Assembly: GCF_020911925.1 (NCBI RefSeq)
Contig: NZ_CP087134.1
Span: forward strand, 2,232,001 to 2,296,000
From: Flavobacterium cupriresistens
Lineage (GTDB): Bacteria > Bacteroidota > Bacteroidia > Flavobacteriales > Flavobacteriaceae
Length of the DNA stretch: 64,000 nt
Direction of reading: 5' to 3'
Position numbers and translations under genes: made by a program. The notes below the pieces were generated by a model that was not told the origin of the DNA, searched no databases, and saw only the letters and a list, made by a program, of their open reading frames with translations. Below are positions 47,727 through 56,822 of the stretch, piece by piece (positions within the stretch are counted from its first letter, which is position 1; the number at the start of each line of letters is the position of its first letter).

Positions 47727-48188
47727 TTAAACTACTTCAGGCTCAACAGACGATTTTATTGTTGAATTAATAATAGACATTGTAAAGGGATCCATTTCGC
47801 CGGAGAAAAAAGCATCCAATACATTCTGAAATATAGGATTCGTATTTTCTACCAGGAAAAAAAGTGTCATGCAAGAACGCAATTTGCGAGCATCTAAGTC
47901 TCCCAAAATAGCTTCGGCAGATTTTCTATTATACGTTAATAATAGTTCTGAAATTTCGATAAGGTGTTTTCCTAATATAGGATGCTCCAGAAAATCAGCC
48001 GCTTCTTTCAGGTCGTTAATGGCATAATAATTTGCAGTATCGCTCTTGCCTAATCCTTTGATTTGAGGGAAGATAAACCACATCCAGTGGGTTTCTTTTT
48101 TCCCTTTGTTAATCTCAGAAAGAGCAGTAAGATAAAGTTTGTTTTGCGCATCTAAAAAGCGCATTAAATCATTGTTTGAATAAGCCAT
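47727..48188 (-). CDS. DUF1810 family protein
   Basis: A 153-residue protein with the DUF1810 pattern: FLDAQNKLYLTALSEINKGKK at the start, then HWMWFIFPQIKGLG and the LDARKLRSCMTLF segment. It has no signal peptide or membrane helix. The family is widespread and uncharacterised; some members occur next to macro-domain or YbiA-like NAD-related proteins. A -7-like element (TACTTTTG, plus 48220-48227) lies 32 bp ahead of the ATG. Confidence 0.88.
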   Translation of the reverse strand: MAYSNNDLMRFLDAQNKLYLTALSEINKGKKETHWMWFIFPQIKGLGKSDTANYYAINDLKEAADFLEHPILGKHLIEISELLLTYNRKSAEAILGDLDARKLRSCMTLFFLVENTNPIFQNVLDAFFSGEMDPFTMSIINSTIKSSVEPEVV

Positions 48189-48353: not shown

Positions 48354-48977
48354 TCACTTTCGGAAGGTTCTTCTAAAAGTCAGATTGATTCGGGGTAATA
48401 CGTTTTTGGCTGTCTTAGGAACCTGATGTTGCCAAAAACTATTTGTGGTTCCTGCCATTAACAAAAAAGAACCATGATGTAATGGAATTTCCACCTGACC
48501 AATGTCTTTTCTAAACTTATGACGCAAGCGAAACATTCTGGTATCTCCAAAAGTCACTGATGCAATAATTGGATTTGAACCGGTATGGTGTTCTTTATCA
48601 CTGTGCCAGGCTACACTGTCGTTACCGTTTCGATACAAATTAAGGAGCAGACTATTAAAATCAAGTTGGGTTTCTTTTTCTACCCGGCTTCTGATGCTCA
48701 ATAAATCATAAGACCAGTCCGGGCCTTTTGGGTCTGCACCCTTATTCTCTTTATCCTCATACCAGGCAATCATTCTGGGTGCCGTAACGGTTTTATCAAA
48801 CATTTCCATTTCATATTCTCTCCATTTGGTTTGATGAAGCAGTTTTTCATAATATTGATCCGATTCTTCTTTGCTGAAAAAATTATCAATCAGAATCAGT
48901 TCGCAGTCAGGCAGGTCAAATACGGTTTTTCCGCGAAGGCCTGAAGTAAATAATTCGGTATCGTTAAATAGTGTCAT
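48354..48977 (-). CDS. alkB: AlkB-like Fe(II)/2-oxoglutarate dioxygenase
   Basis: A 207-residue oxygenase that repairs alkylated bases (1-methyladenine, 3-methylcytosine) by oxidative demethylation. The metal ligands are His125 and Asp127 (WHSDKEHH) and His184 (FWQHQVP), and the 2-oxoglutarate ligands Arg196 and Arg202 are in LPRINLTFRRT. The FGDTRMFRLR and HHGSFLLMAG segments are typical of AlkB. It starts 11 bp after the exonuclease-GIY-YIG gene and is the last gene of the damage cassette. It resembles the short Bacteroidetes AlkB group. Confidence 0.92.
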   Translation of the reverse strand: MTLFNDTELFTSGLRGKTVFDLPDCELILIDNFFSKEESDQYYEKLLHQTKWREYEMEMFDKTVTAPRMIAWYEDKENKGADPKGPDWSYDLLSIRSRVEKETQLDFNSLLLNLYRNGNDSVAWHSDKEHHTGSNPIIASVTFGDTRMFRLRHKFRKDIGQVEIPLHHGSFLLMAGTTNSFWQHQVPKTAKNVLPRINLTFRRTFRK

Positions 48978-48988
48978 GACTCAATTTT

Positions 48989-50380
48989 TTAAGATAAAGC
49001 TTGTTTTGAGAACTGTTTGTTAAATAGAATTTTATTCGGGTGCTTTTCTGCGTAAGCAAAAATTAAATGCATAATGTATTGATTGCTTTTGTAAGGTGTA
49101 ACATAATTTTTGACTTCTGATGGTTCTGTAATGGAAGCGTCTGAAGGAATGTATCCCATACCGTAAAAATGCCCTTTTTCAATCCAGATACAACTGCGCT
49201 CGTCAGTAGACCTGCCTTTGTCTATAATGGCGAAACTGGGTCTTTGGTTTAATAAAAAATCAATTGCATTGTCAACTTGTTCGTTGTGCAGTGCGACATC
49301 AGGGGAGTCTTCGATGTCATTATTTTGAAAAATTACTCCCTCTTCAGGTTTTGAATATTTACAAAAGCGCTGGTCGATTTTAAATTGTTCAGATAAACTT
49401 CTCAATAAGTTGATGGCATCATAAAGGCTGTTAAATTCATAAGTACAAACCTGAAATTTGTTGACTTTGCCGATTGCTAAATATTTATAACCATTTCGGG
49501 CTTCATATTGATAAAGTCCATATTTGGGTTCAAAACGTTTTAATGCCCGATTGTAGGTGGGCCATAATTGTTTGATTTCGGTACATTCTAAAAGCAACGC
49601 CATTAATTCAGTAGCACAAATTTCAAAAGAAATCCCGTAAATATCCCGCAGGAAATTTTGCCTTTGGGAGTTAATGTTATGCCCACTGAAATGAGAAGCA
49701 ACACGTTTTTTTATGTTCACGGCTTTACCAACATAAATGACTTTTTTTACCTGATTATAAAAATAATAGACTCCCGGTTTTTCCGGTAATTGAGTAAAAT
49801 CGTCAGGAGGCAGATTGGGAGGTAAACGTTGGTCTTGTGCCGTTTTTAGAATCATTTTTTCTATTTCTCCGGCATCGTCCCATTCAAGTAATAAAGAAAA
49901 TAAAAGGGCAGTAGCATCTGCATCTCCGCCGGCACGATGCCTGTTTTCTAGAACTATATCTAATGAATTACAAAGATTGCCTAAACTATACGAACTTAAT
50001 CCGGGTTTGATTTTTCTTGCTGCGCGAACGGTGCATAGCTTTCTTGCTGTCCATTTGAATCCCGCTTGTTCAAGTTGGTGTCGTACAAACGAATAATCAA
50101 AATTGACATTGTGTGCCACGAAAATACGATCAGTAAGCATTTCCAGTACTTTATCTGAAATAGCATCGAAGACCGGTGCATTTGCGACCATTTCGTTATT
50201 GATTCCTGTTAATCCAAAAATAGCAGCCGGTATTTCTCTTTCCGGATTTACAAGTGTTTCATAACGGTCGATTACATTTATACCGTCATGAATAACGATG
50301 GCAATTTCTGTAATGCGGCTGCCACTGGCATTACCGCCGGTGGTTTCGATATCTACTATGGCATATTCCTGCTTTTTCAT
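48989..50380 (-). CDS. Fusion of DnaQ-like 3'-5' exonuclease and GIY-YIG nuclease
   Basis: A 463-residue protein. Residues 1-170 are a DEDDh exonuclease: Asp10 and Glu12 (VDIETTGG), Asp95 (HNVNFDYSFVR) and His148/Asp153 (HRAGGDAD). Residues 200-290 are a GIY-YIG nuclease of UvrC/Cho type: GVYYF, YVGKA and Arg226, with the catalytic-type Glu in LLLECTEIKQ. The C-terminal part has no known domain. It could proofread for the DnaE2 polymerase and incise damaged DNA. It lies 125 bp after dnaE2 and is coupled to alkB. DnaQ/GIY fusions are known in several bacteria. Confidence 0.9.
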   Translation of the reverse strand: MKKQEYAIVDIETTGGNASGSRITEIAIVIHDGINVIDRYETLVNPEREIPAAIFGLTGINNEMVANAPVFDAISDKVLEMLTDRIFVAHNVNFDYSFVRHQLEQAGFKWTARKLCTVRAARKIKPGLSSYSLGNLCNSLDIVLENRHRAGGDADATALLFSLLLEWDDAGEIEKMILKTAQDQRLPPNLPPDDFTQLPEKPGVYYFYNQVKKVIYVGKAVNIKKRVASHFSGHNINSQRQNFLRDIYGISFEICATELMALLLECTEIKQLWPTYNRALKRFEPKYGLYQYEARNGYKYLAIGKVNKFQVCTYEFNSLYDAINLLRSLSEQFKIDQRFCKYSKPEEGVIFQNNDIEDSPDVALHNEQVDNAIDFLLNQRPSFAIIDKGRSTDERSCIWIEKGHFYGMGYIPSDASITEPSEVKNYVTPYKSNQYIMHLIFAYAEKHPNKILFNKQFSKQALS

Positions 50381-50505
50381 TTTTATAAAACGTAAATTCT
50401 TCTTTTGTTATTTAGATGCTTAATACGTGGCGCTATGTTTATTTGAATAAGTGAGCGTTACAAAGACTATGTTTTTATCTGTTAAAAAATAATGGTTTTC
50501 CTGTT

Positions 50506-53500
50506 TTAAAATTTCATTCGATGTCGGGGCAGATGAATTTCATGTTCCTGCGGATAAGGTTTTCGATGCGTATTACTGACATCTTCCTTAATTTGATTTT
50601 GAGTTTTAAACTGATGCTCTTTCGAATCGCTGTAACGCGGATCAGGAATAAAAGGCATTTTAGCCATTTTGTTAATGGTAATAGTCGGAAAGTGATAATC
50701 AACTTCTACAGTACCTAATAACAAATAACAGCCACCACCCTGAAACGGATATTGTATCAGACTATCCGGGAAATGTGCCGTATCAAAATAAGTTCCCTCA
50801 TTGTCCACCCAGGTTCCAAAATACATGGCTCCTTTTTTAGTGGGTACGTGTTTTCTTGAAATTAAATACGCCAACATTCGGACTTGTTTTTTATGATACA
50901 CCACAAGATCTTTGGCCATGATATCACCACGATATTTGGTTTGCAATAAATCAAAAGGAGAACAGGAAACGGGGAAACTCAGCAGCTCTATTTCATCAAA
51001 AGCATCTTCAAAAAAAGAACGTTCCAAAGTCGGAAGTTTGTATTCTTTGGCTGGTTCCTGCAAGAGCATCAGACTTCTGTTTTCGGGTTTGAAATTGGTT
51101 AAAAGCAGACTGGCTACAACCAGAAGCTGATTTTTGGTTTTTCCTGTAAAGCGAAAAGCACCAATAAAAATCAAAATTTTAATACCTTCCAAACCAATTG
51201 GAATGCGATTGATGAAATCCTCCAAAGAGGCAAAATCGCCATTTTTAGCACGATCGGATATGATGAGTAAGGTTATTTTTGATTCTAAACGCTCCAGATG
51301 CATAAAACCTAAATAAACAGCAGTGCCATATAAAGTGGTTTGGTAATCGCTTTTGTTGACACAAGGATTCTCAATCGTTGCTCCCGACATACGTGTTTCG
51401 TGTACGTAAACTTCGGTTCTGTAAAAACCACCCTGATTGTTGATTACCGCCACCATAAATTCGATAGGATAATTAACCTTCAAATACAAACTCTGATAAC
51501 TTTCTACGGCATAAGAAGCGGAATGTGCTTTACAAAAAGAATAACCCGCAAAAGATTCAATCTGACGGTAAATTTCTTCACTAAGCGCTTGAGGATGCCC
51601 TTTTTGGGCACAACAGGCAAAGAAATTGTCTTTTACTTTTTGTAACGCTGTTTTAGATCTGCCTTTACCGGACATGGCACGACGCAGGATATCTCCGTCG
51701 GCAGCAGGAAGACCTCCGTAATGCAGGGCGATTTTAATCACATCTTCCTGATACACCATAATACCGTAGGTTTCTCCGAGCTGCTCTTTAAATACCTCAT
51801 GAAAATAATCAAACTGATTGGGGTGATTGTGGCGAAAAATATATTCTTTCATCATTCCGGATTGTGCTACACCGGGACGAATAATAGAGGAAGCGGCTAC
51901 CAGAATTTTATACGTATCACAATTCAAACGACGCAATAAACCACGCATGGCTGGGCTTTCAATATAAAAACAGCCAATGGTTTTTCCTTGAGCCAGATAG
52001 GTATTGCAAACGGCTTCGTCTTTAGAAATAGCGGTGTTGCGAATATCAACTTTAATGCCTCTGTTTTTTTCAATAAGTTTCACACTATCGTCAATGTGAC
52101 CAATACCACGCTGGCTTAGAATATCAAATTTTTCAAAGCCAATATCTTCCGCTGTATGCATGTCAAAAAGAACAATGGGGAATCCTTTTGGAGGCATTTC
52201 CAGAGGCGTGTAGTTTGTTATCGGTTCTTCGGATACGATAATACCGCAAGAGTGCATGCTACGTTGATTGGGATATTTTTCAAGCAGCATACCGTATTCC
52301 TGCACGAGTTTTACAATTGAATTTGGTTCGTGCAGATTCATTGGATTTTTGGCGAGTTTGTCAAGTTCTTCTTTTGGAAGACCAAATACTTTACCCACTT
52401 CGCGAAAGATGGAGCGGTATTTGAATTCGACGTTAGTACCGCAAAAAGCCACATGATCCCTGCCGTATTTATCGAATATATAGTGAAGAATGGTATCGCG
52501 TTCTTTCCAGCTCCAATCGATATCAAAATCGGGAGGACTTTTACGGTTGAGGTTTAAAAAACGTTCAAAATAAAGATCCAATTCTATCGGGCAGATATCT
52601 GTAATGCCTAAACAATAAGCAATAATACTATTGGCACCGCTACCACGGCCAATGTGCATAAAACCCTGACTGTTGCTGTATTGTATGATATCCCAGGTGA
52701 TTAAAAAATAACCGCTAAACTCCAGTTCGTCAATTACTTTGAGCTCTTTTTCGATGCGTGATTTTGCCAAAGTATGATTTTCGCCATAGCGCCAAATCAA
52801 TCCTTTTTGCGCCAGCTCCGTTAGTAAAGCAAAGTCGGTCTTGCGATCGGTAGTAAAAAACTTTTTATTTTTTGGAGTTTTAAATTCGTAGGTGAAATTA
52901 CATTCGTCAATAACCTTTTGTGTATTGGCAATAATTTCCGGGTAATCGTCATAAGCAGATAAAAGGGACGAAAGAGGAAGCATTACTTCAGAAGTACTGC
53001 AATAATCAGCCTCAGTAAGTTTAGACAGTATGTTGTTGGTGTCTATGGCACGTAAAATTTTATGAAGATTAAATTCTTTTTTGGTTTGAAAAGTTACGGG
53101 CTGTAAAACAACCATTTTTTGGATTTTAGTTTTCCATTCTTTTAGAAAAAGCTTTGGTAAATCTTCAGGCCGAATTCCGATAAATTCATTTTCGCGAAGA
53201 ACAGGAGGTGCATTTTCTAAAGGATAGATAAGAAAGACAGCTTCAAATTCGGGTGCAATTTGAGGCAGCGTTTCTCCGCTGAAATTATGTGCCGTCAAAA
53301 ACCGATTCATTTCTGCAAGACCGTCTGCATTTTTTGCCAAACCGATATAACGTAATTGATGTTGCGAACGAAATTCGATACCAATTAAAGGTTTTATACC
53401 TTTTGGTTCACAGCCTTTTATAAAATCATAAATTCCGGTGACAGTATTAATGTCGGTAAGTGCCATGGCTTTTACATTGCATTCGACGGCCTGCTCAAGA

Positions 53501-53562
53501 AGTTTCTCAAGAGAAATAGTGCCATAACGCAGCGAATGAAAAGAATGACAGTTGAGATACAT
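50506..53562 (-). CDS. dnaE2: Error-prone DNA polymerase III alpha subunit (DnaE2-like)
   Basis: A 1018-residue C-family polymerase, shorter than replicative DnaE (about 1160). The catalytic aspartates are in PDFDIDWSW (E. coli 401/403 pair); the third is in the later GFEKFDILSQRGIGHIDD region. The GRGSGANSIIAYCLGI and GAYSFCKAHSASYA-like finger motifs are intact. The N-terminal PHP-like domain reads LNCHSFHSLRYG, with Asn at the position of the first metal His, so the exonuclease-like site is degenerate, as often in error-prone forms. Its ATG overlaps the dinB stop (TAATG), so the two polymerases are coupled. It should do translesion synthesis. Confidence 0.9.
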   Translation of the reverse strand: MYLNCHSFHSLRYGTISLEKLLEQAVECNVKAMALTDINTVTGIYDFIKGCEPKGIKPLIGIEFRSQHQLRYIGLAKNADGLAEMNRFLTAHNFSGETLPQIAPEFEAVFLIYPLENAPPVLRENEFIGIRPEDLPKLFLKEWKTKIQKMVVLQPVTFQTKKEFNLHKILRAIDTNNILSKLTEADYCSTSEVMLPLSSLLSAYDDYPEIIANTQKVIDECNFTYEFKTPKNKKFFTTDRKTDFALLTELAQKGLIWRYGENHTLAKSRIEKELKVIDELEFSGYFLITWDIIQYSNSQGFMHIGRGSGANSIIAYCLGITDICPIELDLYFERFLNLNRKSPPDFDIDWSWKERDTILHYIFDKYGRDHVAFCGTNVEFKYRSIFREVGKVFGLPKEELDKLAKNPMNLHEPNSIVKLVQEYGMLLEKYPNQRSMHSCGIIVSEEPITNYTPLEMPPKGFPIVLFDMHTAEDIGFEKFDILSQRGIGHIDDSVKLIEKNRGIKVDIRNTAISKDEAVCNTYLAQGKTIGCFYIESPAMRGLLRRLNCDTYKILVAASSIIRPGVAQSGMMKEYIFRHNHPNQFDYFHEVFKEQLGETYGIMVYQEDVIKIALHYGGLPAADGDILRRAMSGKGRSKTALQKVKDNFFACCAQKGHPQALSEEIYRQIESFAGYSFCKAHSASYAVESYQSLYLKVNYPIEFMVAVINNQGGFYRTEVYVHETRMSGATIENPCVNKSDYQTTLYGTAVYLGFMHLERLESKITLLIISDRAKNGDFASLEDFINRIPIGLEGIKILIFIGAFRFTGKTKNQLLVVASLLLTNFKPENRSLMLLQEPAKEYKLPTLERSFFEDAFDEIELLSFPVSCSPFDLLQTKYRGDIMAKDLVVYHKKQVRMLAYLISRKHVPTKKGAMYFGTWVDNEGTYFDTAHFPDSLIQYPFQGGGCYLLLGTVEVDYHFPTITINKMAKMPFIPDPRYSDSKEHQFKTQNQIKEDVSNTHRKPYPQEHEIHLPRHRMKF

Positions 53563-54743
53563 TAGAGGTGGCGTTTTAAAATTTCATTTTTAGTGTTGGG
53601 TTTGATAGACGCTCCGGCGCAACGCATAACGGCATCAAAACCATAACGGCTTTTCATTTTATCCATAGCGGCATATAAGGACAACATTTCCTGAGTATCT
53701 TCGAAAAGATCAATTTGATAGGTACCGCGAACGAGTCCGCTAAAGCGAATGCCAATCAAGCGAAGACGCATACGACGCTGATAAACTTTATCGAATAAAT
53801 CGTTTACGTTTTTATTTAAAATATGATCTGCTGATGTGTACGCAATTTTGCATTGCTTGGTCTCGGTGTCAAAATTGGCGTAACGTATTTTAACCGTAAT
53901 TGTAGAGGTTAACCATTGTTCAGAACGGAGTTGAAAAGCCAGTTTTTCGACCATTCCCATCAGTATTCTTCTCAATTTTGGAATATCGATCGTGTCCTGA
54001 GAAAAAGTATGTTCGGTAGAAATCGACTTTCGTTCAGAATAAGGTTCCACCGGAGTATTGTCAATGCCATTTGCTTTTTTCCAGATATCAAGACCATTTT
54101 TTCCGATCATGCGCTGCAGTACTTCGGCAGGCATTTCGGAGAGGGTTTGTATCGTGCGAATTCCGATTCGGGATAAGAGCTGAAAAGTTACATTACCAAC
54201 CATCGGTATTTTCTGAATCGATAATGGATTTAAAAAGGCTTGTACTTCATGTTCCGGAATTTCTAAATTTCCTTTTGGTTTGCCTTCTCCGGTTGCAATT
54301 TTAGAGACGGTTTTATTGACAGATAAAGAAAAACTAATTGGGAGTCCTGTTTCTTTATTGACCGCTTGCGCCAGTTCATTCGTCCATTTATAACTTCCAT
54401 GAAAACGATCCATACCGGTGATGTCAAGATAAAATTCATCGATACTGGCTTTTTCCATAATAGGTGCCTTTTCCTGAATTACCTGAGTGACATTATGTGA
54501 TAATTGAGAATATAATTCCATATCCCCTTTGATGATTTTGGCTTGTGGACAGAGTTTCATCGCCATGTAAATGGGCATGGCAGAACGAACTCCGAAATGA
54601 CGTGCTTCATAGGAGCAGGAAGCAACCACACCACGGTCACCGCCACCGATAATTAGCGGAATACCTTCTAATTGAGAATTGGTGAGCCTTTCGCAGGACA
54701 CAAAAAAAGTGTCCAAATCCATGTGTACAATTGCCCGTGCCAT
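53562..54743 (-). CDS. dinB: Y-family DNA polymerase IV
   Basis: A 393-residue translesion polymerase. Catalytic residues are Asp9 and Asp11 (HMDLDTFFVSCERL) and the Asp-Glu pair in SIDEFYLDIT; the YEARHFGVRSAMP motif and little finger domain are present. In the SOS regulon DinB bypasses alkylation and other lesions. It is the first gene of a polycistron with dnaE2 and lies divergent from the XRE-S24 repressor gene, whose product very likely represses it. The C-terminus lacks a clear beta-clamp motif. Confidence 0.92.
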   Translation of the reverse strand: MARAIVHMDLDTFFVSCERLTNSQLEGIPLIIGGGDRGVVASCSYEARHFGVRSAMPIYMAMKLCPQAKIIKGDMELYSQLSHNVTQVIQEKAPIMEKASIDEFYLDITGMDRFHGSYKWTNELAQAVNKETGLPISFSLSVNKTVSKIATGEGKPKGNLEIPEHEVQAFLNPLSIQKIPMVGNVTFQLLSRIGIRTIQTLSEMPAEVLQRMIGKNGLDIWKKANGIDNTPVEPYSERKSISTEHTFSQDTIDIPKLRRILMGMVEKLAFQLRSEQWLTSTITVKIRYANFDTETKQCKIAYTSADHILNKNVNDLFDKVYQRRMRLRLIGIRFSGLVRGTYQIDLFEDTQEMLSLYAAMDKMKSRYGFDAVMRCAGASIKPNTKNEILKRHL

Positions 54744-54763
54744 TTTTTTGTTTTTGAATAAGA

Positions 54764-54771
54764 CAAAATTA
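54764..54771 (-). promoter_or_regulatory. -7-like element of the dinB promoter
   Basis: TAATTTTG on the minus strand matches TAnnTTTG, 20 bp ahead of the dinB ATG. No TTG is found at 17-23 bp upstream; the nearest is 13 bp away. Confidence 0.45.
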
Positions 54772-54778
54772 GTACAGG

Positions 54779-54821
54779 TTGTAACAAAAATGATTATATT
54801 TGTTGTTCCAAATTATAACAA
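54779..54821. promoter_or_regulatory. Candidate operator region shared by dinB and the XRE-S24 repressor
   Basis: The 86-bp divergent spacer contains the palindrome TTGTAACAA (54779-54787) and a spaced inverted pair TTGTT (54800-54804) and AACAA (54817-54821). TATATTTG at 54795-54802, a -7 element for the repressor gene, lies between them. The layout suits autorepression and simultaneous control of dinB. The exact binding site cannot be settled by eye. Confidence 0.5.
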
Positions 54822-54829
54822 AATAAATT

Positions 54830-55606
54830 ATGTCTTTATTTTCAGATAATATCAGGGCCCTACGGGTAAAGCATAAAATTTCGCAGGAGAAACTTGCGGA
54901 AAACCTTTGTATCACAAGAGGAAGATATGTTAAATATGAAGACGGAACTTCTGAAGCGCCGTACGATATCTTAAAGCTGATTGCTTTATATTTTCATACC
55001 AGTATTGATTTGTTATTGTCTGTTGATATCCGTAAAATTGATATTGAAAATTTGATAAAACTGGAAGGCAACCGACTTATTTTACCCATTCAGGTGGATC
55101 ATTTTGGAGAAAATTATATCGAAATTGTCACCCAAAAAGCCAAGGCTGGTTATTTAAACGGTTATTCAGATCCGGAGTATATCGAAAATTTGCAGCAGAT
55201 TTCATTGCCTTTTTTGGGACCTGGAAAACACAGAGGATTTCCGGTAGAAGGAGATTCGATGCCGCCACATGAAGACGGAAGTATTATCATTGGTCGATAT
55301 GTAGAAAGGCTGGGAGAGGTGTTGGATGGAAAAACCTATATCCTGATTACCAAAAACGAGGGAATGGTGTACAAACGGCTGAATAAAAACAAAAAAAATG
55401 CATTGGTTTTAGAATCCGATAATCGTTTTTATCCCAATTATGAAGTCAAAGCTTCTGATATTTTGGAAATTTGGGAATACGAATGCAATATTGGCCGCAG
55501 CGATAAACGTCATGAATTAACAGAAACTCAGAGTATGAAAGAATTGCTTTTGGAGGTGAAACGGGAAGTCATGGAGATTAAAAGTAATACTCTGAGTGGG
55601 AGTTAA
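54830..55606 (+). CDS. XRE-S24 LexA-like self-cleaving repressor
   Basis: A 258-residue regulator. The N-terminal XRE-type helix-turn-helix (about residues 5-60, ISQEKLAENLCITRGRYVKYE) is followed by a C-terminal S24 serine peptidase domain. The predicted cleavage site is Ala106-Gly107 (KAKAGYLN), the nucleophile is Ser143 (VEGDSMPPHEDG) and the general base Lys182 (MVYKRLNK). The spacing (36 and 39 residues) is close to that of E. coli LexA (Gly85-Ser119-Lys156). It should repress the divergent dinB operon and be inactivated when RecA filaments form. No canonical LexA is present in the window. Confidence 0.9.
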   Translation: MSLFSDNIRALRVKHKISQEKLAENLCITRGRYVKYEDGTSEAPYDILKLIALYFHTSIDLLLSVDIRKIDIENLIKLEGNRLILPIQVDHFGENYIEIVTQKAKAGYLNGYSDPEYIENLQQISLPFLGPGKHRGFPVEGDSMPPHEDGSIIIGRYVERLGEVLDGKTYILITKNEGMVYKRLNKNKKNALVLESDNRFYPNYEVKASDILEIWEYECNIGRSDKRHELTETQSMKELLLEVKREVMEIKSNTLSGS

Positions 55607-55615
55607 AGTTTTAGG

Positions 55616-56056
55616 TTAATTGCCTTTTACGATAGCCGAAGCAATTTGCCCGCAATGATGTGAATTGTGAAAAAGAATGATAGACAATAGTCTGATTCTT
55701 GATACCGTTCCCAAAAAAGGAGCTTCTGTTTCTTCGAACCAATCTTTGTCCGAAGAATTTTCTATTACAGCTTCGAGTGCTTTATATCCTTGTTCCAAAA
55801 GGGCGCGACTTGTTTGCAAATCGTACTCTTTTCCGGTGTCGGATTGTCCTATGGTTGTGTTCTCTACGTTGGTTTCAATCCCGAAAGATTGGCCTAAAAT
55901 AAGGGCAGTTTCTCCAATATGTCTGTAAATAAATCCGACAGAAGCTGTTTTTTCATTCAATCTGAAACGAATGTTTTCGGCACTTATGTTTTTAAAAGTA
56001 GCATAACAATTAGATCGGTTTTGATCTAAAAGAGCAAGTAGCATTTCTTTTTGCAT
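55616..56056 (-). CDS. DinB-superfamily (YfiT-like) putative metal-dependent enzyme
   Basis: A 146-residue four-helix bundle protein of the DinB/DUF664 superfamily (not related to polymerase DinB). The metal-binding histidines are visible: one in the second helix (FIYRHIGETALIL) and two in the C-terminal HNSHHCGQI. Family members include thiol S-transferases and hydrolases. It is the last gene of a three-gene operon with an ArsR regulator and an SRPBCC protein; it may detoxify a compound sensed by the regulator, which is an inference. Confidence 0.88.
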   Translation of the reverse strand: MQKEMLLALLDQNRSNCYATFKNISAENIRFRLNEKTASVGFIYRHIGETALILGQSFGIETNVENTTIGQSDTGKEYDLQTSRALLEQGYKALEAVIENSSDKDWFEETEAPFLGTVSRIRLLSIILFHNSHHCGQIASAIVKGN

Positions 56057-56073
56057 GATTTTTAATTTTAAAA

Positions 56074-56394
56074 TTAATCTTTCTTTTTGTTTAAAATAGT
56101 TTCCAGTTTACTGAGTTTATTTTCCCAGAATTGATCAAAATGACTGATCAGCGCTTTTACGTCATTAAACCCTTTTTGGTTTAAAATGCAATGGCGTTCC
56201 CGTCCGATTTCCTGAATCGAAATAAAGCCGGCCTGCTGTAATATTTTAATATGTTTTGAAACCGCAGGACGACTCATATCAAAATTTTCAGCCAAAGCAT
56301 TTATGTTGTAACTCTCTTGGGTCAGTAATTGCAGAATTTGCCTGCGACTTGGATCTGCAATTACTTGTAAAGCATCAAAATTTGGGATTGACAT
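56074..56394 (-). CDS. ArsR-family transcriptional regulator
   Basis: A 106-residue winged helix regulator: DPSRRQILQLLTQESYNINALAENFDMSRPAVSKHIKILQQAGF is the recognition domain. There is no evident metal-binding cysteine pair, so it is likely a non-metal ArsR member of the type found next to SRPBCC (Aha1) proteins. Its start codon overlaps the stop of the SRPBCC gene (TAATG). It presumably binds the GTAAC palindromes in front of the operon. Confidence 0.9.
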   Translation of the reverse strand: MSIPNFDALQVIADPSRRQILQLLTQESYNINALAENFDMSRPAVSKHIKILQQAGFISIQEIGRERHCILNQKGFNDVKALISHFDQFWENKLSKLETILNKKKD

Positions 56395-56822
56395 TATTTC
56401 GTATTTAAAGCATTAACTAATTTTTCCATGATTTTAAGCCATCCGTCGGTCATTCCGTTAAGGATTGAGATATTGGCTTCTTTAAATCCGGTGTGGAGAA
56501 GATATAATTCGGTTCCGTTATCTTTCTTTTCGAGTGTCCATTCTACAACGGTATCAAGTGTGATTACCTTATTTCCGGGGCCGGCTGTCCAGCTGTAAAC
56601 CAGTTTTTGATGAGGGATGATTTCTAAAACTTTACAGTGCATAATTCCGTCAAGATCTAAACTCGGAATCGGATTGGTGCGAAAGGTAAACTCGTGTCCC
56701 AAGGCAAGTTTAAAATCATTTGGCATGATCCATTGTGCGATTAAATCGGCATCGGTTAAATAAAGCCAGATTTCTTCGGGAGATTGGTTGTAAAACCATT
56801 TGTGTTTGATTTCTGTTTTCAT
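56394..56822 (-). CDS. SRPBCC (Aha1-type) protein
   Basis: A 142-residue START-like protein: HKWFYNQSPEEIWLYLTDADLIAQWIM at the N-terminus, GHEFTFRT and a long C-terminal helix (LNGMTDGWLKIMEKLVNAL). The activator of Hsp90 ATPase domain is implied by fold only; these bacterial forms bind small hydrophobic ligands or have unknown roles. It is the first gene of an SRPBCC-ArsR-DinB-superfamily operon, an order often seen in soil and water bacteria. Confidence 0.88.
   Translation of the reverse strand: MKTEIKHKWFYNQSPEEIWLYLTDADLIAQWIMPNDFKLALGHEFTFRTNPIPSLDLDGIMHCKVLEIIPHQKLVYSWTAGPGNKVITLDTVVEWTLEKKDNGTELYLLHTGFKEANISILNGMTDGWLKIMEKLVNALNTK

Follow-up and report, generated by a model that had tools for sequence, protein, structure and literature searches.

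The question raised by this stretch of the Flavobacterium cupriresistens genome (64,000 nucleotides of contig NZ_CP087134.1, positions 2,232,001 to 2,296,000, here called the window) is whether four adjacent genes for DNA polymerases and repair enzymes, and the repressor gene divergent from them (positions 48354 to 55606 of the window), form one unit under a single switch. The sequence evidence makes it very probable that they do: the block would be an SOS-type operon, DNA-damage-inducible, repressed by an S24 protein and triggered by RecA, in which lesion bypass is coupled with base repair. This is in essence what the initial annotation had proposed, the nuclease and dioxygenase genes included, and the evidence from the sequence supports it.

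Open frames and domain searches bear out the arrangement that had been described. On the minus strand dinB (53562-54743) encodes a Y-family polymerase with IMS and IMS_C domains, and its stop codon overlaps the start codon of dnaE2 (50506-53562) to read TAATG, the latter encoding the second DnaE of the genome with PHP, DNA_pol3_alpha, finger and HHH_6 domains. After a gap of 125 base pairs (bp) comes a gene here called exo-GIY (48989-50380), whose product, previously read as a DnaQ/GIY-YIG fusion, joins an RNase_T domain (DEDDh exonuclease) to a UvrC-like GIY-YIG domain and a C-terminal region without a match. It is followed after 11 bp by alkB (48354-48977), which encodes an alkB-type Fe(II)/2-oxoglutarate dioxygenase (Pfam 2OG-FeII_Oxy_2). 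The XRE-S24 repressor gene, S24 below, lies on the plus strand (54830-55606), divergent from this four-gene row and 86 bp from dinB.

The 86-bp gap holds one TAnnTTTG element in each direction, which we take to be promoters of the -7 type: TATATTTG for S24 (54795-54802, plus strand) and TAATTTTG for dinB (54764-54771, minus strand). Beside the S24 element lies a palindromic operator, O1 (54804-54820, TGTTATAATTTGGAACA on the minus strand), and at the dinB element lies an operator half-site, O2 (54771-54785, minus strand), 34 bp from O1. When O1 of the window is combined with those of 25 Flavobacterium loci, the resulting matrix of 26 sites has the consensus TGTTACAAATTGTAACA, and in a scan of the window O1 scores 25.0 with the next best site at 15.3. 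The spacing of O1 and O2 is 33 or 34 bp in 26 of 26, and their half-sites co-vary, with 25 matching bases over 10 types against 16.4 expected, a value that 4 of 20000 shuffles reach; for this comparison a spurious row, L048, was removed and a counter-example, L044, was kept as a type of its own (L-numbers are fetched loci of relatives and G000 is the window genome). Copies of dinB-dnaE2 without an adjacent S24 (L048, L060 and L106) keep the operators, and for two of these the same genome has a documented S24 cassette elsewhere, L033 (F. johnsoniae strain CI04) in the case of L048 and L247 in that of L106. The core of the consensus, TTAC-AAATT-GTAA, is a diverged palindromic operator with a 5-nucleotide spacer in the repressor's own promoter; it is also the site bound by the SOS regulator of E. 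anophelis, which together with a divergent error-prone polymerase is induced by mitomycin C (PMC8565304, whose content, like that of the other papers cited, is taken from excerpts).

The repressor is composed of an N-terminal CI-type helix-turn-helix (HTH) and a C-terminal S24 peptidase domain, as is apparent both from Pfam (HTH_3 and Peptidase_S24) and from the structure model. The AlphaFold2 model has a mean predicted local distance difference test score of 69.0 overall and near 90 in the HTH, with helices at residues 19-25 and 30-38, the second being the recognition helix. Foldseek places a lambda-186 hybrid repressor and the 186 and lambda repressors at the top, T. maritima LexA lower, and unrelated HppE chains among the weak matches; against P22 c2 repressor chains the HTH reaches TM-scores of 0.88-0.90 of the target. 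The protein has a predicted cleavage bond at A106-G107 and a Ser-Lys dyad, S143/K182, and over 63 aligned S24 rows the serine is found in 62, the lysine in 62 and A-G in 44. By these features it can be assigned to the non-canonical LexA kind of Bacteroidetes (PMC8565304).

How the switch may read its site can be followed across relatives. Among 31 distinct combinations of helix and operator, drawn from 41 rows (for L058, L061, L071 and L193 the operator was positioned by eye), those with V34 have T at half-site base 2 on both sides of the operator in 19 of 19 cases, and those with another residue in 1 of 12 (Fisher 1.4e-7). Residue 34, which lies inside helix 30-38 of the model, is the protein column most strongly associated with base 2 by this test, whose values ignore kinship. 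When a tree of 32 rows is calculated without the HTH, from the remainder of the protein behind it, the operator label has to change 7 times, well-supported branches forcing no fewer than 5 of these changes, and residue 34 agrees with the label in 31 of the 32 (L071 deviates); therefore the association of V34 with T is not one inherited event. A held-out set of 28 further combinations, with helices absent from the first set (2 of 74 loci were unusable), again pairs V34 with T in 10 of 10, making 29 of 29 when both sets are pooled. The reverse rule, that a residue other than V34 means no T at base 2, was dropped: it applied in 11 of 12 cases in the first set, but in only 10 of 18 in the held-out set, where the remaining 8 have T, and the rule is therefore claimed only in the direction from V34 to T. 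A second rule was noticed in the held-out set and afterwards checked on the first. When residue 31 is D, E or P, half-site base 3 is G in 11 of 11 (other residues 0 of 17), and in 3 of 3 in the first set (others 0 of 28), which is 14 of 14 against 0 of 45 overall. Two residues of the recognition helix, 31 and 34, thus appear to track operator bases, and this way of reading the site seems to be new.

The operator is rare in the genome, a single contig of 5.74 Mb. With at most one mismatch it is found in two places only, O1 and a site 68 bp upstream of a gene whose product has UvrA domains (L116:1501-1517, G000:C1:4688212-4688228). Read by eye, the uvrA site is found in 9 of 30 relatives, all with a UvrA at least 94% identical, in the perfect form TGTTAC-N5-GTAACA in seven and with the right half TTAACA in L147 and L150. 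Matches with three mismatches are mostly chance: the operator pattern gives 89 forward and 94 reverse, and the same pattern reversed gives 82 and 74. Up to two mismatches are found at 21 listed loci, 13 of them inside open frames; apart from the cassette and uvrA, the intergenic ones among these have no recognised repair gene downstream (leuS-like, TonB-type and others, named by eye). A perfect palindrome at G000:C1:2880766 was rejected as an operator and read as a terminator, because it is a hairpin followed by T, and a strict dyad search returned 25 matches against 54 in the control, each way, so the dyad alone is not enriched.

Whether the genes belong together was asked of relatives in two ways. 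A search with DnaE2, whose nearest named matches include F. pectinovorum and F. johnsoniae, gave 80 named loci, of which 64 had at least 3 kb on both sides (16 were excluded); these were grouped by record title. Among the 29 Flavobacterium loci dinB is found in 29, a divergent S24 in 26, exo-GIY in 16, alkB in 18 and DUF1810 in 16, with 12 of the loci having the same outer neighbours and therefore not being independent. In Chryseobacterium and its kin (19 loci) dinB is found in 18, S24 in 17 and exo-GIY in none, with alkB behind dnaE2 in one and on the S24 side in six, and the other groups (16 loci) have dinB in 13, S24 in 10, DUF1810 in 1 and neither alkB nor exo-GIY. The association of the genes is thus greater than chance, because relatives show them side by side again, and the linkage expected by the initial annotation is widely kept in the core (dinB adjoins dnaE2 in 60 of the 64 loci). 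The conserved unit also reaches one gene beyond alkB, to the DUF1810 gene (47727-48188, minus strand), which is linked in relatives.

The second survey started from S24, which avoids selecting on DnaE2. It covered 150 Flavobacterium genomes including that of the window, some being the same assemblies as the named ones, and S24 was found in 75; 74 of 84 matches were fetched, the remainder being the window and nine others that were fragments, lay at the start of a contig or, in a few cases, were weaker. In 52 of these 74 loci the divergent module is dinB-dnaE2, in 11 umuD-umuC, in 2 imuA-imuB-dnaE2, in 4 only alkB and in 2 exo-GIY-alkB; nothing was found in the other 3, two of which lie at the end of a contig. 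Exo-GIY and alkB are each present in 40 of the loci, DUF1810 is in 28, and 10 have a gene like exonuclease III. The genes divergent from S24 in Flavobacterium are therefore modular, as individual loci illustrate. L247 (Flavobacterium sp. Root901) has an S24 90% identical to that of the window and O1/O2 of the same type, with umuD-umuC-exoGIY-xthA-alkB-DUF1810 in place of dinB-dnaE2. L334 and L349 have three such genes opposite S24: one that is ImuA-like, whose scores of 57.7 and 62.5 bits stay under a cut-off of 150, one for a Y-family homologue, and one for an error-prone DnaE scoring 1373 and 1367 bits against a cut-off of 939. Downstream of these follows alkB in L334 and exo-GIY-DUF1810-alkB in L349. 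In L307-L309 and L329 the divergent gene is alkB by itself, its start 88-120 bp away from that of S24, and in L307-L309 S24 faces it directly under O1/O2.

Modularity of this kind might also be expected of passive linkage, in which repair genes hitch-hike on a defence or genome island without joint function. The patchy gene content would fit such an island, as would a core that is also found on a mobilizable plasmid (the S24, dinB and dnaE2 of L246, NZ_CP033916.1, from Chryseobacterium). Yet the operators are kept with every polymerase module examined, alkB and S24 are found together in differing arrangements, and the AlkBs of the cassette have a dedicated clade, described below, so that we consider passive linkage unlikely.

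The working of a damage-inducible unit may be pictured as follows. Without damage a dimer of S24 would sit on O1, beside its own -7 element, and on O2, at the -7 element of dinB, shutting both directions. RecA on single-stranded DNA would then provoke self-cleavage of S24 at A106-G107 by way of S143 and K182, and dinB-dnaE2-exoGIY-alkB would be released, presumably as one transcript. DinB and DnaE2, probably with RecA replacing ImuA, would bypass lesions, whilst AlkB may strip alkyl groups from bases in exposed single strands and exo-GIY, for which the initial annotation had suggested a putative proofreading or incision role, may trim or nick the DNA around lesions, a putative division of labour among the products.

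A number of observations weigh against this picture. M-G replaces A-G in 18 of the 63 S24 rows, including a second copy, L222, all 18 being assigned to the Chryseobacterium group by record title, and L068 is gapped. O2 is only half a palindrome, O1 and O2 mismatch in L044, and no O1/O2 pair could be extracted from 5 of 45 rows. The uvrA of 21 of 30 relatives lacks the site, and no operator was found before recA when the upstream stretch was read, with none nearby among the matches listed; the predicted regulon is therefore the cassette and uvrA only. The presence of exo-GIY and alkB behind dnaE2 in only 16 and 18 of the 29 Flavobacterium loci means that the tail is optional, and the 125-bp gap before exo-GIY makes a separate transcript possible, yet that gap is without a TAnnTTTG element.

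The last two points bear on a more restricted form of control, where S24 would govern only itself and dinB-dnaE2, with exo-GIY and alkB simply lying downstream under promoters and regulation of their own. That the tail is absent from many loci (22 of the 74 have dinB-dnaE2 without any tail gene) would fit with it, as would the gap of 125 bp and an exo-GIY beside LigD/Ku genes without an operator (L248). However, neither the dnaE2-exo nor the exo-alkB gap contains TAnnTTTG, the latter being just 11 bp, a lone exo-GIY carries an operator (L192), alkB or exo-GIY-alkB stands directly opposite S24 in 6 of the 74 loci, and the tail persists when the polymerases are exchanged. Restricted control is thus given roughly the same small probability as passive linkage, and control of the whole row by S24 is preferred.

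The absence of a site before recA raises a further alternative, that S24 is a phage-type repressor recruited for a stress not signalled by RecA, the cassette being stress-induced but not part of an SOS response. The HTH does resemble those of phage repressors, and the same genome carries an S24 repressor in a prophage-like region (L112, G000:C1:5456076-5456486) with 46% identity to that of the cassette over the peptidase part. Nevertheless A-G, S and K are retained in S24, the operator precedes uvrA, and E. anophelis and other relatives of this kind are induced by mitomycin C (PMC8565304), which leaves this alternative a very slight chance, smaller than that of the other two, and favours the SOS reading. 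Apart from the close match and the distant one in the prophage-like region, the S24 search of the genome gave two weak HTH-only matches.

DinB looks active because its polymerase motifs are present. The SIDE motif is kept and a QIDLF clamp-like motif is visible by eye; the Pfam domains of DinB are the IMS ones only, without ImuB-C. Its tail, AMDKMKSRYGFDAVMRC, resembles the N-terminus of the genome's own RecA, TLDKLDKTYGKGTVMKM, by eye and without a statistic. A PF00154 search of the genome, which could miss ImuA, finds one gene, RecA, and there is no ImuA within the block. The genome has one copy of the cassette DnaE and one longer DnaE (1518 residues). Residues D344, D346 and D479 of the cassette enzyme, which we take to be the catalytic acidic residues, are invariant across 10 aligned relatives. 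Replicative DnaE models of NCBIfam outscore the error-prone model, with scores below the cut-off in both; the name DnaE2 is used because of PMC3919608 and PMC12926913, and the assignment to DnaE2B because of PMC12926913 and the pairing with a Y-family polymerase (PolY).

The exo-GIY product has its best NCBIfam match in the model PRK07883, at 258.5 bits with a cut-off of 495. Its GIY-YIG domain matches that of UvrC (1yd6, E 5.3e-23); no RNase H-like or HhH domain follows it in Pfam or the structure matches listed, the best 50 Foldseek matches are all to the exonuclease part, and the last 180 or so residues have no match in domain and structure searches, among the matches listed. Nine cassette-type genes (68-83% identity) were found elsewhere, in 22 genomes chosen mostly for a locus without exo-GIY: behind dnaE2 in L189 and L190, behind umuDC in L191/L247, alone in L192 with an operator about 110 bp upstream, downstream of S24 on the same strand in L195, and without a link in L196 (contig edge) and L197 (LigD and Ku genes adjacent). 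Many of these genomes have a second exo-GIY, 34-38% identical, without a cassette-type operator. The remaining two of the nine are L194 and L193: in F. frigoris a second, decayed cassette (L194) retains an operator, a dinB fragment, a dnaE2 tail and an open exo-GIY frame, and F. aquariorum has a second S24 (L193/L250) with a GGGAT-type operator, facing exo-GIY-alkB without polymerases, as well as a cassette of GTTAC type (L032). Within the window no site above a score of 7 lies before exo-GIY, alkB or DUF1810, and no conserved promoter in the dnaE2-exo gap could be aligned across relatives, only a block beside the start codon. This block, like TTTACGTTATATA and lying at 50381-50400 just before exo-GIY, recurs in many relatives despite differing upstream sequence.

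AlkB matches the 2-oxoglutarate-Fe(II) oxygenase family (E 2e-31) and its nearest solved chain is human ALKBH3 (E 1.7e-36), with which the HxD...H and R...R residues align, presumably the AlkB dioxygenase motif; it scores 32.5 bits against the NCBIfam alkb equivalog of E. coli, below the cut-off of 231.05. ALKBH3 prefers single strands, and a preference of this type would suit gaps at stalled forks. In a tree of 52 rows (four were removed, being identical or short) the 21 AlkBs from Flavobacterium cassettes group in a single clade (100/100), separate from unlinked Flavobacterium AlkBs, whilst the S24-linked AlkBs of Chryseobacterium form another together with L061 (behind dnaE2), L229 and L244, the last two having no cassette link within their short flank; support for the order of the clades is weak, and the tree program gives a long-branch warning. 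A search of 19 genomes gave 33 AlkB matches; 30 of the loci were fetched, and in 11 of them AlkB lies within 1.5 kb of S24, dinB, dnaE2 or exo-GIY.

DUF1810 and, in relatives, the exonuclease III-like gene extend the unit. The former has one solved relative, Rv1873 (2jek), a promoter-like element, TACTTTTG, lies in the 165-bp gap before it, and its name brings up only unrelated papers in the open literature; it may be regarded as a candidate SOS gene. Directly behind dnaE2 it occurs in L039, L045 (Sphingobacterium) and L093, and behind the cassette in many linked loci.

How much of this is new depends on what has been described. The core, a repressor with dinB-dnaE2, is an already described SOS system. 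The non-canonical LexA system of Bacteroidetes (PMC8565304) likewise has an XRE HTH and S24 domain with A-G, S and K, a repressor divergent from an error-prone polymerase and a palindromic operator with a 5-nucleotide spacer, the E. anophelis site being the consensus core found here, and its predicted targets include a GIY-YIG exonuclease, umuDC, imuA-imuB-dnaE2 and dinB-COG0587. The window differs in its predicted regulon of cassette and uvrA only and in its operator, neither of the main motifs GGA-N5-TCC and CTAA-N5-TTAG being seen in the S24/dinB gap. A reduced DnaE2 of Bacteroidetes has been described (PMC3919608), as has a PolY-DnaE2-RecA module (PMC6511836, PMC12926913), and dinB-dnaE2 fits the DnaE2B-PolY-RecA module of PMC12926913, with an apparently active Y-family polymerase beside DnaE2, no ImuB-C and a RecA-NT-like tail; the excerpts of these two papers describe the module without exo-GIY, AlkB, an xthA-like gene or DUF1810, and without exchange for umuDC or imuA-imuB-dnaE2. 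The proposal that the whole combination was uncharacterised therefore has to give up the regulator class and the PolY-DnaE2 pair, whereas for alkB with a dnaE2 operon, or with S24, LexA or SOS, nothing was found for Bacteroidetes in the open literature (subscription papers and supplements being outside the search), the matches for alkB with imuB, dnaE2 and SOS in the excerpts concerning other bacteria.

A similar division applies to the proposal that dinB replaces imuB. The window does have DinB and no ImuB-C, but the DnaE2B lineage occurs in genomes without ImuA/ImuB (PMC12926913), and imuA-imuB-dnaE2 stands in the same place in L334 and L349. The ImuA-ImuB-DnaE2 cassette resembles the present block as an SOS-type operon with a second DnaE, found in those two loci beside S24 and alkB, and differs in that the block lacks ImuA and ImuB, its DinB appearing active. 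Proteins with a DEDD exonuclease and GIY-YIG (PRK07883) share the two-domain order of exo-GIY, which is set apart from them by its score. The main text of PMC8565304 has no occurrence of alkB, nor does that paper contain the term recognition helix, and AlkB and GIY-YIG do not occur in the text of PMC3765255, in which Aravind et al. treat SRAP and ImuB-C neighbourhoods. What looks new is thus the tail of AlkB and exo-GIY, the way in which polymerase systems are exchanged and the code that relates repressor to operator.

It is tempting to join these into one proposal, although as a whole it is put forward tentatively and with somewhat more doubt than confidence. The SOS locus might be an exchange platform, where S24 stays along with its tail of repair genes (exo-GIY, exonuclease III, DUF1810 and an AlkB lineage of its own) whilst translesion systems (dinB-dnaE2, umuDC, imuA-imuB-dnaE2 or none) swap, the 31/34 code shifting the operators and so allowing orthogonal SOS repressors within a genome, and the tail working with the mutasome so that repair comes before bypass. 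SOS repressors have been said to keep changing their binding motifs, such hypervariability being intrinsic to the SOS response (PMC8565304), and a residue-to-base rule would make this directly testable at the bench. With this locus the list of candidate SOS genes in Bacteroidota gains DUF1810 and an enzyme of direct reversal, AlkB, and mutagenic polymerase systems of three kinds are seen at one position under one kind of switch.

Some minor observations concern the surroundings of such cassettes. An SRAP-type gene is found in the fetched cassette flanks of 8 of the 80 named loci, for example L043:3431-4054 (with Pfam for L043 only). The dnaE2 on L046, a contig assigned to a Bdellovibrio metagenome-assembled genome, shares 74% identity with the query; the contig may be Bacteroidota DNA placed in the wrong bin. 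Beside S24 in the window (55616-56822) lie a gene of the DinB_2 fold, which is not a polymerase, an ArsR-type regulator and an AHSA1 gene, and DinB_2-fold and ArsR-type genes again adjoin S24 in L070 and three survey loci.

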